64,000 nucleotides of DNA, taken from NCBI RefSeq assembly GCF_013410405.1, contig NZ_JACCFK010000001.1, positions 4,154,001 to 4,218,000 of the forward strand. Direction: 5' to 3'. Position 1 is the first letter of the stretch, and each line of letters begins with the position of its first letter. This document shows positions 2,815 through 13,002 of this stretch, piece by piece. This stretch comes from Amycolatopsis endophytica. GTDB lineage: Bacteria; Actinomycetota; Actinomycetes; Mycobacteriales; Pseudonocardiaceae. Below the pieces are notes generated by a model. That model worked only from the letters and a program-made list of their open reading frames with translations, was not told where the DNA came from and did no database searches. Made by a program: the position numbers and the translations under genes.

Positions 2815-3957
2815 TCACGCGATGGCGCGCAGCGGGTGTTCGAGCAGGCCGGTGAGCGTGGCCAGGAACTGGCCGGCGAGCGCGCCGTCGATGATGCGGT
2901 GGTCGGCGGTGAGGGTGTACCGCATGCGGCGCGGCTCGCCGAGCGCGGCACCGACCGCGAGGATGGCACCCTGGGGCGGGTTGATGATCGCGGTGAACTG
3001 CTCGACCCCGAACATGCCGAGGTTGCTGACCGTGCACGTTCCGCCGGCCATGTCCGCCGGGCTCAGTGTCCGGTCGGCGGCCCGGCCGGCGAGTTCGCGG
3101 GTCCGCACCGCGATGGCCGTGACCGGGGACCGGTCGGCGTCGCGGACCACCGGCACCACCAGGCCGCTCGGCGACGACACGGCGATCCCGACATGGATCC
3201 CTTCGTGCAGCACGGTTGCGCCGCGGCCCTCGGGCGAGTACGAGGCGTTGATCCCCGGGTGCGCCCGCAGCGCGAGCGCGACGGCCCGGACGACGAGATC
3301 GTTGACGGTCACCTTCGCGGAGGCCGGCGCTTCGTTGATCTGCGCGCGCAGGGTGAGCAGGGCGTCCACGTCGGCGGAGGCGGTCGCGGTGAACGTCGGG
3401 ATGGTGGCGCTGTCGGCGAGCCGCGTCGCGACGGCGTGGCGGACGGCGTCGAAGGGCACCCGTGTCGCTCCTGCGGCGGCGGGTTCGGCGGGTTCGGCCG
3501 GCGCGGGATCGGTGCGAAGAGCGTCCTCGATGTCCGCCCGCACGATGCGGCCCCGCGGCCCGCTGCCGGTGATCCCGGCCAGGTCGATCCCGTGCTCGCG
3601 GGCGAGCCGCCGCACGAGGGGAGTGGCCGCCAGACGGCCGTTTCCCTCCTGTGGCAGGGGCGGTGCGGCGGGCACCGGTTCCGCCGCGGGAGCCTCACGC
3701 GCGGGCTCGGGAGCGTCGCCGCTGCCGTCGTCGAGGCGGGCGATCGGGGCGCCGATGGGCACCGCGCTGCCCGCGGGCACGAGGATCTCGGTGAGCGTGC
3801 CGTCCTGGTACGCCTCGAACTCCATGATCGCCTTGTCGGTTTCGATCTCGGCGAGGACCTGCCCGGTGGTGACGTGGTCGCCGGGCCCGAAGTGCCACGA
3901 GGAGATCACGCCCTCCTCCATGGTGTCGGACAGGCGCGGCATCAGGATGTCGATCAT
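2815..3957 (-). CDS. 2-oxoacid dehydrogenase E2 (dihydrolipoamide acyltransferase)
   Basis: A 380-residue E2 with one lipoyl domain (residues 1-76, lipoylated Lys42 in [12 protein letters not shown]), an Ala/Pro/Glu-rich linker, a peripheral subunit-binding domain (about 111-147, [14 protein letters not shown]) and a catalytic domain ending with the transferase motif DHRIIDG (His near 353) and [11 protein letters not shown]. It transfers the acyl group from the E1-bound TPP intermediate to CoA. With the heterotetrameric E1 encoded upstream it fits either a pyruvate or an acetoin dehydrogenase complex; sequence alone does not decide. No E3 gene is present here, so a housekeeping lipoamide dehydrogenase must be shared. 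Confidence 0.93.
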
Positions 3958-3967
3958 CGTGCTCCCG

Positions 3968-4960
3968 TCAGCGACGCCGGGCGACGGCGTCGAGGGTCTG
4001 GCGAATCGCCGTGGTGGCGTCGTCGATGCTGGGCAGGGCCGCGGTTTCCAGCGGCTTGGAGTAGGGCAGCGGGACCTCGGCCATCGCGACGCGCCGGACC
4101 GGGGCGTCGAGCCAGTCGAACGCGCCGTCGGAGATGCTGGCCGCGACCTCGGCGCCGATGCCGTAGGTGAGCCAGTCGTCTTCGAGAACGACGGCGCAGT
4201 TGGTCTTGCGCACCGAGGCGATCACCGTGTCCCGGTCCAGCGGCCGCAGGCTCCGCAGATCGACGACCTCCACGTCGATCCCTTCGCGCGCCAGCTCTTC
4301 GGCGGCCCGGAGCGCGACCGTGGCCATGCGCGAGTAGGCGATGACGGTGATGTCGGCCCCTTCGCGGGTGACGGACGCGACGCCGATCTCGGCGGGCACG
4401 TCGTCGTCGGGCACCTCGCCCTTGGTGTTGTAGAGAGCCAGGTTCTCCAGGACCAGCACCGGATCGTCGTCGCGGATCGCGGCCAGCATGAGCGCCTTCG
4501 CATCGGCCGGTGTGGACGGTGCCACCACCTTCATCCCTGGCACGAAGGCGTAGTACAGCTCGATGTTCTGCGAATGCGTCGCGCCCAGCTGCTGCCCGCC
4601 GCCACCGGGGGTCCGAATCACCATCGGCGCGCGCGCCTGCCCGCCGAACATCCCATAGATCTTCGCGGCGTGGTTGACGATCTGGTCCAGTGCCAGCAGC
4701 GAGAAGTTGATCGTCATGATCTCCACGACCGGCCGCAGGCCGAGCATCGCGGCACCGATCGCGGCGCCGGTGAACCCCTCCTCGGCGATCGGGGTGTCGC
4801 GGACCCGCCGTGCGCCGAACTCCTCCAGCAGCCCGGCGGTGATCTTGTAGGAGCCTTCGAAGCGGCCGATCTCCTCGCCGATCAGGAACACGTCCTCGTC
4901 GCGCAGCATCTCCGACCGCAGCGTGTCGTGCAGGGCCTGCCGGTAGCTGATCACGCTCAC
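3968..4960 (-). CDS. 2-oxoacid dehydrogenase E1 beta subunit
   Basis: A 330-residue transketolase-fold beta subunit (pyrimidine-binding half of the TPP site) with the expected motifs EEIGRFEGSYK, DTPIAEEGFTGAAIGAA and VVDLRSLRPLD. It pairs with the alpha subunit to decarboxylate a 2-oxoacid or acetoin. The GTG start overlaps the E1-alpha stop as GTGA, indicating coupled, probably 1:1 synthesis. A second in-frame GTG lies two codons downstream and could also be used. Ten bases separate its stop from the E2 start. Confidence 0.93.
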   Translation of the reverse strand: MSVISYRQALHDTLRSEMLRDEDVFLIGEEIGRFEGSYKITAGLLEEFGARRVRDTPIAEEGFTGAAIGAAMLGLRPVVEIMTINFSLLALDQIVNHAAKIYGMFGGQARAPMVIRTPGGGGQQLGATHSQNIELYYAFVPGMKVVAPSTPADAKALMLAAIRDDDPVLVLENLALYNTKGEVPDDDVPAEIGVASVTREGADITVIAYSRMATVALRAAEELAREGIDVEVVDLRSLRPLDRDTVIASVRKTNCAVVLEDDWLTYGIGAEVAASISDGAFDWLDAPVRRVAMAEVPLPYSKPLETAALPSIDDATTAIRQTLDAVARRR

Positions 4961-6018
4961 GCCGGAACACCGGCCTGCGCGAACAGCGGCTGTCCCGGCA
5001 GACGGCGCGAATCGTTGCGCACGGGGGTGGCGTAGGTGTGATCGAACAGCGTCGACACCTCCGGCAGCGGGCTCGCTTCGGCGAAGGCGGCGGCCGCCTC
5101 GACGGCGGCGGCGATTTCGGCCTCGATCCCGGCGGACAGGTCGTCGTTCAGGAGACCACGCTCGCGCAGGTGCGCGGCGAACCCGAGGACCGGATCGGCG
5201 GCACGGAGCGCCTCGATCTCGGCCTGGTCGCGGTACTTCGCCGGGTCGACCACGGAATGGCCCTTCAACCGCCCGGACACCGTTTCCAGCAGGTAGGGCT
5301 GTCCGGAACGGGCCGAGCGCAACGCTTCCAGCGCCGCTTCGTGAACGGCCGCGGGATCGTTGCCGTCGACCCGGCTCGACGGCATCCGGTAGGACGACGC
5401 GCGCCGGTACAGGTCGGGCTCGGCGGAGGACTCCTCGACGGTGGTGCCCATGCCGCGGCCGTTGTTGACCACGACGTACACGATCGGCAGGTGCCACAGC
5501 GCGGCCAGGTTGAGCGATTCGTGGAAGGCGCCGATGTTGGTCGTCCCGTCGCCCATCAGGCACATCACGGCCTCCTGCCCCGCCCGGTAGTCGATGGCCA
5601 GCGCCGCGCCGGTCGCGAGGGGGACCTGACCGCCGACGATGCCGTAGCCGCCCATCAGCCGGGACTCGACGTCGAACAGGTGCATCGACCCGCCCCAGCC
5701 ACGGGACACCCCGTCGCGGCGGCCGTACAGCTCGGCCATCACACGGCCGGGGTCGATGCCGCGGGCGATCGCGTAACCGTGTTCGCGGTAGTTGGTGAAC
5801 AGGTAGTCGGTGTCGGCGAGCGCGGCCATGAGGCCGGCGACGGTGGCTTCCTCACCGAGGTTGAGGTGGCAGTACCCGCCGACCTTCGCCTCGGTGTAGG
5901 CGCGGGCGGCGCGTTCCTCGAACCGGCGGATCAGCAGCATCTGCCGGTAGAACCGGAGCGCCTGCTCGTCGTCGAGGCAGCCGGTGGCCGGGGCTGCCGT
6001 CCCTGCGGGGCTGGGCAT
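4957..6018 (-). CDS. 2-oxoacid dehydrogenase E1 alpha subunit (TPP-binding)
   Basis: A 353-residue alpha subunit with the TPP motif GDGTTNIGAFHESLNLAALW, the LFTNYREHGYAIARG segment and GHSVVDPAKYRD, the region of the regulatory or phosphorylation loop in relatives. High-GC actinobacteria generally use the unrelated homodimeric AceE for central metabolism, so this heterotetrameric enzyme is probably a specialised or inducible one (pyruvate, branched-chain or acetoin type). The start at MPSPAG is chosen because GGAG lies 8 bases upstream. First gene of the operon; its promoter region is shared with a divergent TetR gene. Confidence 0.93.
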   Translation of the reverse strand: MPSPAGTAAPATGCLDDEQALRFYRQMLLIRRFEERAARAYTEAKVGGYCHLNLGEEATVAGLMAALADTDYLFTNYREHGYAIARGIDPGRVMAELYGRRDGVSRGWGGSMHLFDVESRLMGGYGIVGGQVPLATGAALAIDYRAGQEAVMCLMGDGTTNIGAFHESLNLAALWHLPIVYVVVNNGRGMGTTVEESSAEPDLYRRASSYRMPSSRVDGNDPAAVHEAALEALRSARSGQPYLLETVSGRLKGHSVVDPAKYRDQAEIEALRAADPVLGFAAHLRERGLLNDDLSAGIEAEIAAAVEAAAAFAEASPLPEVSTLFDHTYATPVRNDSRRLPGQPLFAQAGVPA

Positions 6019-6055
6019 TCGGGGGTCTCCTCTCGCCACGGGGTGTCCGCGGCTA

Positions 6056-11136: not shown

Positions 11137-11757
11137 TCAGCAATCACTCCAGAACTCGGCCGAGAGCAGATTTGTGTGGTCGATGGGCGGGAGTCCCTCG
11201 TCGAGGCCGCGGAGGCGTTGGTACAGCTCGCGCATCTCACCCCGATCCGCGACGAGACGGGTGCGGGCGGCTCGCTGGAGGACAGCGACCGTCCCTGCCA
11301 GGCGAAGGGTTCCCGCGGTGCGACCGGCCCCCCGCAACCGCAGGAGCCGTTCGATCTCCCCGGCCGCCGACCGCTGTCCCGCCCCGTCGTCGATCAGAAC
11401 GATCACGTCCGCACCGGCTTCGGCAGCGACGACCGCATGAGCGATCACCATGAGCTCGCCGAGGTCCCGGGGAGCTTGGCGGCGTTCGGGCAGGTATCTG
11501 CCGGTGAGGCGATGGACCACGGCACTGAGTTGGGGAGTGGTGTCGTCGGGGAGGATCTCCAGCAGTCTCGAGGGAAGTTTGTTCAGGACGGTTCGCGCGG
11601 AGGCGAAGCGCCTGTCGCTGCATGCTTTGCCGAGTATCTCCCGGTGCACGGTTTCGGGCATGCTCAACGGACCGAGAACGGTGAAGAGCAGACGCTCCTT
11701 GTTGATGGAGAAGAAGTTGAGGCCGGGACCGGCGTCGATGATGGGGCGATGGCTCAT
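11137..11757 (-). CDS. PIN-like nuclease domain protein (third gene of XRE-peptidase operon)
   Basis: 206 residues. The N-terminus (RPIIDAGPGLNFF) places Asp8 where PIN nucleases carry their first metal ligand; further acidic residues fit the PIN pattern at Glu40 (VHREIL), Glu101 (RDLGELMVIAHA) and Asp123/124 (VIVLIDDGAG). PIN proteins are metal-dependent RNases, often toxins. Its ATG overlaps the ImmA/IrrE stop (ATGA), so the three genes are coupled. Assignment rests on motifs and overall layout; a structure-based search would test it. Confidence 0.72.
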   Translation of the reverse strand: MSHRPIIDAGPGLNFFSINKERLLFTVLGPLSMPETVHREILGKACSDRRFASARTVLNKLPSRLLEILPDDTTPQLSAVVHRLTGRYLPERRQAPRDLGELMVIAHAVVAAEAGADVIVLIDDGAGQRSAAGEIERLLRLRGAGRTAGTLRLAGTVAVLQRAARTRLVADRGEMRELYQRLRGLDEGLPPIDHTNLLSAEFWSDC

Positions 11758-12596
11758 TCCCGGGCGGTCCCTGACCCGTCGGGAGGTCCCTCGTCCAGTT
11801 CGCCGAGGTCGACCGCCACGGTGGGCAGGTCGTCCGGATCCGCGAAGGTGACCGAGAGGGGTGCGGCGGTGATGCCGGCGTCCCGGAGTTCCTGCTCGAC
11901 CTCCGCGAGCGGGGCGCCGCGCAGAGTCGCGATGGTCTGGGCGGAGACCACGCCCGCCTGAAAGCCGCTGATCGCGCGGGCCAGCAGGCGTTGCGGTGCA
12001 CGCCTGCGCTGGGAGTCGGCCTGCAGGATCCGGTAGTGATCGCTCCACCCGTACCGGGTCGCGAGCTGGGGTGTCGACAGAGCCATCCACTGGTTCCGGA
12101 GACCGCGGTCGACGTATCCGTTCCGGTGCAACGCGACCGCGGCGACCGCCGGGGACACCACGAACCGCTGCACGATCGCGGACAGGTCCGCGAGGCCGGG
12201 GCCGGGCCGGGCCGCCATGAACTCGCGCAGGCCCTGATCCGGCACGAGCAAGTGCCGGGCGAACGCCCGCGCGCGCTCCTCCTGTGGCGTGGGCTCACTC
12301 CAGTCGCGGGGATGTGTGCCGGTCCAGTCGGCGAACACGACATGGCCCAGCTCGTGCCCGAGGGTGCTGCGCTGCCGCATGGGGTTCGGCGTGCGGGCCA
12401 CCCCGATGATCACCGAGCCACGCAGGGGGTCGTGCACCGTGAGACCGTGCTCGTCGGGGCCGGCATCGAGGACCGCGACGTCGTGACCGGTGCATTCTTC
12501 GATGATGGTGATCAGGTCCCCCAGCGGCTGTACACCGAGTTTGTGCTCTTCGCGGAACCGCTCGGCGGCGGCGCGGCCCTCGTCTTCGGGGTTCAT
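11754..12596 (-). CDS. ImmA/IrrE family Zn-metallopeptidase (COG2856)
   Basis: 280 residues with the gluzincin motif HELGH (His81, Glu82, His85) followed by EERARAFARHLLVP, which supplies the third ligand (Glu106 or Glu107). Relatives such as ImmA cleave an HTH repressor; others are toxins paired with an HTH antitoxin. Here the HTH partner is encoded directly upstream (overlap ATGA) and a PIN-like protein directly downstream. The C-terminal half (about 150-280) is not a recognised domain and may be the sensing part. Confidence 0.88.
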   Translation of the reverse strand: MNPEDEGRAAAERFREEHKLGVQPLGDLITIIEECTGHDVAVLDAGPDEHGLTVHDPLRGSVIIGVARTPNPMRQRSTLGHELGHVVFADWTGTHPRDWSEPTPQEERARAFARHLLVPDQGLREFMAARPGPGLADLSAIVQRFVVSPAVAAVALHRNGYVDRGLRNQWMALSTPQLATRYGWSDHYRILQADSQRRRAPQRLLARAISGFQAGVVSAQTIATLRGAPLAEVEQELRDAGITAAPLSVTFADPDDLPTVAVDLGELDEGPPDGSGTARE

Positions 12597-12949
12597 CCGG
12601 CCCTGGCGCTCGTCGTGGGGGCGGGAATGGCCTGGTCGTCGAGGTAGTCGTCGAGTTCCAGGAACCGCAGCAGCTTGTCCCGCATGACGGCCATGTCCGT
12701 GCCGTTGGTGGCACGCGCGGCATACCGCACTCGCTCGCCGACCGACGCGGTGCCGGTCAGTTGCGCCATCGTGTGGCCGGTCGCCCTGGCGATCGCGATC
12801 AGCTCCGGAACTTTCGCGGGTCGTTGACCGGTGATGATGCGCGACAACGTGGACTGCGAGACGCCACTGGCCTCGGCCAGGGCTCGCTGGCTCAGCGCCG
12901 CGTCCTCGCGAGCGCGTTCGATGCGCGCACCGACGTCGGCTGTGGTCAC
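12593..12949 (-). CDS. XRE family HTH regulator (antitoxin/repressor candidate)
   Basis: 118 residues with a Cro/CI-type helix-turn-helix in residues 5-60 (REDAALSQRALAEASGVSQS, then TLSRIITGQRP). GTG start with GAGGAGGG 7 bases upstream. First gene of the XRE/peptidase/PIN operon. The operator-like repeat CTGAATCA/TGATTCAG overlapping the -10 region suggests autoregulation, with relief if the ImmA-like peptidase cleaves it; that mechanism is by analogy with ImmR/ImmA. Confidence 0.88.
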   Translation of the reverse strand: MTTADVGARIERAREDAALSQRALAEASGVSQSTLSRIITGQRPAKVPELIAIARATGHTMAQLTGTASVGERVRYAARATNGTDMAVMRDKLLRFLELDDYLDDQAIPAPTTSARAG

Positions 12950-12969
12950 GGCAACCCTCCTCGAACTGG

Positions 12970-13002
12970 CTGAATCAGTGTTCCTCTAGGTGATTCAGTA
13001 TA
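12970..13002 (-). promoter_or_regulatory. Promoter and operator of the XRE operon
   Basis: A -10 hexamer TATACT (13002 to 12997 on the minus strand) overlaps the right arm of a perfect 8-bp inverted repeat, CTGAATCA and TGATTCAG, with 13 bases between the arms. A repressor bound here would cover -10 and the start of transcription. No convincing -35 is visible. Confidence 0.65.

Follow-up and report, generated by a model that had tools for sequence, protein, structure and literature searches.

An XRE-peptidase-PIN operon of Amycolatopsis endophytica as a candidate three-gene toxin-antitoxin system

The regulator pairs CapH+CapP and PprI-DdrO control cyclic-oligonucleotide-based antiphage signalling systems (CBASS), other immune operons or DNA repair, and both CapP and PprI are reportedly activated by single-stranded DNA. 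Here, we describe a compact operon encoding an XRE repressor, an M78 metallopeptidase and a predicted PIN nuclease, located in a 64,000-nucleotide stretch of the Amycolatopsis endophytica genome (contig NZ_JACCFK010000001.1, positions 4,154,001 to 4,218,000), hereafter called the window. A protease-controlled three-component toxin-antitoxin system, combining a COG2856-Xre pair with a PIN or RelE toxin and in which the protease would cut the XRE protein, was proposed by Makarova et al. (2009; PMC2701414). The same paper predicts that UPF0175, equivalent to COG2886, is a helix-turn-helix (HTH) antitoxin of PIN toxins (PMC2701414), and a UPF0175 gene stands beside a DUF3368 PIN gene in Geobacillus (PMC6929052). 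In the ImmA/Rosmer zone of NetFlax, node D25 is an ImmA-protease antitoxin linked to PIN-like domains (PMC10440598). Finally, VapKSC (2026; PMC13373217) comprises a kinase sensor, a separate STAS antitoxin released by phosphorylation and a VapC-like PIN toxin.

The operon and its operator

The elements of the operon are listed below, with positions given in the window.

12593..12949, minus strand: XRE/Cro-C1 HTH repressor, 118 amino acids, GTG start (HTH_3 48.6 bits, HTH_31 48.8 bits)
11754..12596, minus strand: M78 (ImmA/IrrE-type) metallopeptidase, 280 amino acids, with a C-terminal UPF0175-like domain (Peptidase_M78 38.8 bits, cut-off 22)
12342..12356, minus strand: HELGH zinc-binding motif of the peptidase, residues 81-85, with Glu106 as candidate third ligand; conserved in relatives
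11865..11987, minus strand: UPF0175-like (COG2886-type) domain, residues 204-244 of the peptidase, putative antitoxin (Pfam 16.2 bits)
11790..11846, minus strand: acidic C-terminal tail of the peptidase, W/F..LP.V.VDL..LD[DE], putative toxin-binding peptide with conserved residues
11137..11757, minus strand: PIN-fold nuclease (predicted fold), 206 amino acids, putative RNase toxin
12970..12998, no strand assigned: palindromic operator CTGAATCA-N13-TGATTCAG, exact 8-bp arms at 12970-12977 and 12991-12998; repeat conserved upstream of relatives and single copy in the genome
12997..13002, minus strand: candidate -10 element TATACT, by reading, with two bases in common with the operator

The three-gene feature is real and well conserved. 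The original prediction, made from the letters of the window, had described three genes joined by four-base overlaps and beginning with an HTH gene followed by a COG2856-type zinc-peptidase gene; both descriptions are borne out, by the overlaps at 12593-12596 (XRE/peptidase) and 11754-11757 (peptidase/third gene) and by the HTH_3/HTH_31 and Peptidase_M78 matches. It had also been staked on the three genes occurring together in other genomes, which they do. A genome scan gave 100 stretches containing a relative of the PIN protein, of which the best 80 were kept as locus set, and in 77 of these best 80 loci the XRE and peptidase genes, XRE in front, stand beside the PIN gene. The three exceptions are two loci cut by contig ends (L076, L079) and one devoid of XRE and peptidase within about 6 kb (L032). 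The operon has the composition of the COG2856-Xre-PIN proposal, uniting genes for an XRE protein, an HExxH M78 peptidase and a PIN protein. The four-base overlap is found between peptidase and PIN genes in 61 of 76 measurable loci and between XRE and peptidase genes in 18 of 77, and in L003, L045, L072 and L077 the latter two genes form one open frame. Such single-frame loci resemble the single-chain IrrE/RmrA proteins, and two of them (L072 and L077) have a frameshifted toxin gene. Over 68 gene sets, the distances of the PIN protein correlate with those of the M78 part (0.89) and of the XRE protein (0.82).

The 8-bp inverted repeat in front of the XRE gene, initially thought to cover the -10 element, is exact, and its overlap with the candidate -10 amounts to only two bases. 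The motif TGAATCA-N11-13-TGATTCA is exactly present in 74 of 78 upstream regions (the window and 77 loci), where it starts 30-75 bases ahead of the XRE start with a spacing of 13 (55 regions), 12 (17) or 11 (2); the remaining four regions (L025, L061, L063, L066) carry it with one mismatch, bringing all 78 of 78 within one mismatch. None of 1,560 shuffled regions (20 mononucleotide shuffles per upstream region) came within one mismatch, and at the level of sequence the repeat is conserved beyond chance. In 45 of the 74 regions, the last base of a TAnACT element is also the first T of the left half-site TGAATCA. The operon thus seems to possess an autoregulatory-type operator at its promoter, as do type II toxin-antitoxin systems with PIN toxins (VapBC-like). 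The motif occurs once in the 7.2-Mb host genome, where a backward control pattern is absent; given this single site, control by the repressor seems confined to its own operon, and the operator was rejected as marker of a wider regulon. Among 249 genomes of the family, the motif was found in 19, and 18 of the 19 fetched loci adjoin XRE and peptidase genes. The lone site in genome G307 was taken as a chance occurrence, the backward control pattern also occurring in 9 family genomes.

Residues H81, E82, H85 and E106 of the peptidase are identical in 76 of 76 intact relatives, and by sequence its M78 active site (HExxH+E) is complete. Among defence models it matches capP (8.8e-16) better than RmrA (best 2.2e-9), and its nearest solved fold is CapP (fold comparison covering residues 5-177); a CapP-like peptidase is thus found beside a CapH-like HTH protein. 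The XRE protein also matches the RmrA model (5.6e-8), so that the similarity to RmrA is split over two separate genes. RosmerTA, named in the earlier comparison, is not clearly the nearest relative: RmrA models match both proteins, but on the peptidase capP scores better and the nearest fold is that of CapP. We did not adopt it as the family, capP outranking RmrA and the third protein being devoid of a Rosmer match: no Rosmer model was among the matches of this protein and 29 relatives, in a library whose content in RmrT models was not confirmed. The only defence model matched by the third protein is PDC-S70.

The third protein and the C terminus of the peptidase

Searches of the third protein against Pfam, NCBIfam and PHROG gave nothing at E ≤ 1, and neither its sequence nor its alignment found anything significant in the PDB. 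With plain Foldseek the best match had an E of 0.017, short of the 0.001 threshold, and PIN proteins appeared among tryptophanyl-tRNA synthetases and other proteins. Its assignment rests on the VIA-align ranking of predicted-fold matches, in which the PIN nuclease match that a structure search was expected to provide for the initial by-eye assignment was found; by predicted fold, the third protein is a PIN nuclease. In the 68 intact copies, the acidic residues E40, D98 and E101 are present in all 68, D8 in 67 (one copy not covered) and D123 in 67, so that the predicted PIN fold comes with the conserved acidic residues of VapBC-like toxins. In profile-profile comparison, the family matches PIN proteins paired with UPF0175 (94.8%, P 4.8e-8); within the matched set, L134 exceeds the DUF3368 cut-off, which L136 does not reach. 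The DUF3368 label (PF11848) is carried by 14 of the 120 listed relatives, and none of the 30 that were scanned matched the model. Almost all of the 120 listed relatives share 58-64% identity with the window protein.

Further support for a toxin role, already a candidate in the original prediction, comes from the way the operon decays. Of the 78 loci of the best-80 set that are free of contig-end cuts, 67 are intact, nine have only the PIN gene broken, none has only the XRE or only the peptidase gene broken, one has both peptidase and PIN genes broken (L078) and one is the lone PIN gene (L032). The nine PIN-only lesions are six frameshifts, one stop, one 35-residue deletion and one N-terminal loss. 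From coding length, a lesion would be expected in the toxin gene in about 34% of cases, giving a probability of 6e-5 for nine out of nine (L078 and L032 left out). As the loci were found through PIN, broken partners beside an intact PIN gene were equally findable. Outside the 78, the PIN gene is also broken in L098 and L102 (L099 repeats L070), while L122 (genome G491) and L143 (genome G050) have kept operator, XRE and peptidase and have no toxin match anywhere in the genome; the L122 peptidase ends directly after the UPF0175-like domain and that of L143 also ends early. This one-sided decay fits the pattern expected of a costly toxin behind a protective partner.

The region following the catalytic part of the peptidase matches UPF0175 (PF03683) at E ≤ 1 in 39 of 57 relatives, window included (best 1.3e-4). 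Other DNA-binding models (HTH_23, AbiEi_4) match one member each among the 57, and eCIS_core matches somewhere in the protein in 29 of them. We call the domain UPF0175-like, and do not file it as a UPF0175 member, since the score of the window protein is below the Pfam cut-off. It is followed by a variable stretch and then by the conserved acidic motif, whose P is present in 66, D in 65, L in 66 and W in 51 of 68 sets. By profile-profile comparison, the tail of the window family matches the tails of the more distant M78 peptidases L135, L136, L139 and L140 (96.2%, P 2.8e-9), with XRE HTH controls at 0.6% and 3.0% (the 0.6% being the window XRE), and it is through these tails, among which L135 is over the UPF0175 cut-off, that homology to UPF0175 is found. 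Of the three M78 genes of the host, only that of this operon is matched by the UPF0175 model, and PIN profiles found no match in the 3.3 kb fetched around the other two (n=2).

When the UPF0175 model was run against 149 phylum genomes, 24 of them yielded a total of 27 rows, with seven genomes over the cut-off, and eight of the 27 rows fall at the ends of M78-type peptidases: L135, L136 (cut by the contig start), L139, L140, L143, L146, L154 (the operon's own) and L155. The L135 protein is over both Pfam cut-offs (M78 53.8 bits, UPF0175 30.6 bits); L139, L140 and L146 are under that of UPF0175. The open reading frame downstream of the L146 peptidase, PIN-like by eye, had no match to the PIN profiles and was not counted, and no PIN match was obtained for L155. 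With the L135 peptidase as query, 15 of 346 genomes were matched and 12 loci were obtained. The next gene matches a PIN profile in 10 of these 12, and in six of the eight loci that were not used to build that profile (exceptions L186 and L192). A small tail profile adds L193 to the tail-positive distant loci.

Distribution and surroundings

The operon is patchily distributed and sometimes plasmid-borne. It was found in 2 of 296 genomes of the phylum and 22 of 249 genomes of the family, host included in both counts and several of the latter being fragments only, and in 2 of 15 other genomes of the genus, one of them a fragment. Nine of 72,556 plasmid records carry it (seven from Rhodococcus and two from Pseudonocardia, seven of the nine covering at least 80%). 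None of 50,697 phage records has a match, and one viral contig does. No empty site was found by comparison with 18 other genomes of the genus, three of which have distant relatives of the left neighbour gene. There is no constant neighbour either, the largest neighbour cluster, headed by an ABC-transporter-like protein (by eye), being present in 7 of 69 loci. PADLOC models matched numbered 94 for 134 neighbour genes (37 of 69 usable loci) versus 25 for 134 random genes, these being counts of models, which overlap within systems, and not of genes.

In the host, the genes next to the operon look metabolic by eye. Two open reading frames at 3968-6039 of the window (minus strand), about 5 kb past the downstream end of the operon, resemble the E1 subunits of 2-oxoacid dehydrogenases by eye. 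On the Rhodococcus plasmid pYLC1 (L180:9145-10185), the next annotated gene after the operon is trpS, which may be a clue to a tRNA target or a matter of chance. In L050, two small predicted open reading frames overlapping by four bases (4655-5313) follow the third gene (3901-4515) on the same strand.

Proposed mechanism, alternatives and known systems

Taken together, these results suggest a self-contained three-gene toxin-antitoxin operon in which repression is the task of the XRE protein, the peptidase tail keeps the RNase in check and the XRE protein is cut by the activated peptidase, a reading to which we give a probability of about 55%. An XRE dimer bound to the two half-sites would repress the operon. 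The PIN RNase would be bound and held back by the C-terminal part of the peptidase, through its UPF0175-like domain and acidic tail, the peptidase doubling as antitoxin. A signal would activate the peptidase, which would then cut the XRE protein; by analogy with CapP and PprI, single-stranded DNA arising from damage or from phage replication is the most likely one. The operon would then be transcribed in a burst and the peptidase-antitoxin released or turned over, and these events together would free the PIN RNase to cut RNA and stop growth. How activation would lead to release of the toxin can only be guessed at: binding of XRE may make the tail let go, or the tail may be cleaved in trans or lost by turnover. 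Of the three-part toxin-antitoxin system originally put forward as a candidate, the toxin fits the decay, but the likely antitoxin is the UPF0175-like tail of the peptidase and not, or not only, the XRE protein. That the sensor-protease is itself the antitoxin, an M78-UPF0175 fusion whose tail holds the RNase and in which the signal for XRE cutting also releases it, we propose only tentatively.

Several observations weigh against this reading. The window peptidase scores 16.2 bits with UPF0175, under the curated cut-off of 27.9, and hmmsearch missed it at E ≤ 1 with small profiles built either from the distant tails or from standalone UPF0175. Compared directly with standalone UPF0175, the window-family tail reaches only 81.9% (P 1.1e-5), and the 96.3% of the distant M78 tails is a match partly by choice, these tails having been selected with the UPF0175 model. 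In five of the eight independent distant loci (L184, L186, L187, L191, L192) the C-terminal UPF0175 signal is weak (12.8-19.6 bits, all below the cut-off), and in these eight a tail signal is no predictor of the PIN gene, which is present in four of six loci with the signal and in two of two without. Two distant PIN proteins taken alone (L139, L140) do not match the window PIN (2.6%). The tail motif is retained at similar rates in toxin-broken and intact loci (7/9 versus 59/67), and the partial correlation of PIN distances is 0.746 with the M78 part versus 0.397 with the C-terminal domain. As for the decay, most loci are drafts in which some frameshifts may be sequencing errors, and the PIN gene of Marinactinospora thermotolerans (L032:6001-6615) looks intact with neither XRE nor peptidase present within about 6 kb, and could be an orphan toxin or a relic.

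Because of the hmmsearch miss, of the weak UPF0175 signal and of the missing tail-PIN association in distant loci, we lowered our confidence in a peptidase-antitoxin and raised that in the XRE protein as the real antitoxin, whose cleavage would free the PIN protein, the HTH-like C terminus of the peptidase only sensing nucleic acid or positioning XRE. This was the proposal made for COG2856-Xre with PIN or RelE (Makarova et al. 2009; PMC2701414), and it agrees with the co-variation of XRE with PIN, with the loci where XRE and peptidase share one frame and with the distant M78 genes L189 and L190, which have a PIN gene and no detected UPF0175-like tail. We still regard it as unlikely, though a serious contender, given that the family matched by the tail is one that pairs with PIN toxins and that, of the three M78 genes of the host, the UPF0175 model finds only that of this operon, the 3.3 kb fetched around the other two showing no PIN match. 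A system without toxin, namely an ImmR/ImmA-like stress switch inducing a PIN RNase whose part in RNA turnover would be regulatory, would account for the conserved operator and IrrE/CapP-type peptidase, which form a complete switch, and for the good conservation of the PIN protein; however, patchy occurrence, plasmid copies, lack of a constant neighbour and toxin-only decay better suit a toxin-antitoxin unit, and we consider the switch improbable. That the operon is dedicated to anti-phage defence (abortive infection), with CapH/CapP-type control and the PIN nuclease as killing effector, is a reading that concerns the purpose of the system and is compatible with the toxin-antitoxin one. It is conceivable, with odds clearly short of even: counted by model, the PADLOC matches near the operon could not be told apart from those of random genes, the host surroundings look metabolic by eye, and the phage records, none of which has the operon, gave phage defence no direct support.

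Should the peptidase carry the antitoxin, sensing, de-repression and toxin release would be united in one protein, and a protease branch would join the DNA-damage controllers (CapW, CapHP, CapKS) able to end in toxin-antitoxin operons. Such a sensor-protease antitoxin would parallel VapKSC with a protease in place of the kinase, and would occur in several peptidase lineages of Actinomycetota that are deeply separated, with XRE separate or fused. Irrespective of this, the operon gives the 2009 prediction of a protease-controlled three-component system the form of a concrete, testable machine, with a single operator, a named domain and a toxin that is lost first.

Alignments with CapP and PprI end near residue 175-183, before the UPF0175-like domain, and, in contrast to CapH+CapP, no CBASS or known immune operon is present here, the third gene encoding a predicted PIN nuclease and the next genes looking metabolic by eye. 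RosmerTA differs in its toxin, which depolarises membranes, where the operon has a PIN nuclease and mostly separate XRE and peptidase genes; with NetFlax node D25, an ImmA-protease antitoxin node, the operon has in common the link to a PIN-like domain (PMC10440598). VapKSC is the nearest in logic, with three genes for a DNA-damage-type sensor, an antitoxin and a PIN toxin, and with a Cap-type regulator inside a toxin-antitoxin operon; it employs a GHKL kinase and a STAS antitoxin in place of XRE and M78 peptidase, and in our case sensor peptidase and putative antitoxin domain form one chain (PMC13373217). The COG2886 (UPF0175)-PIN pairs have in common a related PIN and a UPF0175-like domain, but their antitoxins are small and standalone, whereas here the domain is a peptidase tail scoring below the Pfam cut-off (PMC2701414, PMC6929052). 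In the literature searched, outside which lie most subscription papers and preprints, we found no earlier report of a peptidase with a UPF0175 domain. The COG2856-Xre-PIN system likewise brings XRE, COG2856 zinc-peptidase and PIN genes together in one operon, but there XRE is the supposed antitoxin, COG2886 and COG2856 are separate PIN partners and the available part of the paper makes no mention of a COG2886 domain on the peptidase (PMC2701414). The general kind of system was thus predicted in outline in 2009, while the antidote-on-protease layout and the near-invariant operator look new.
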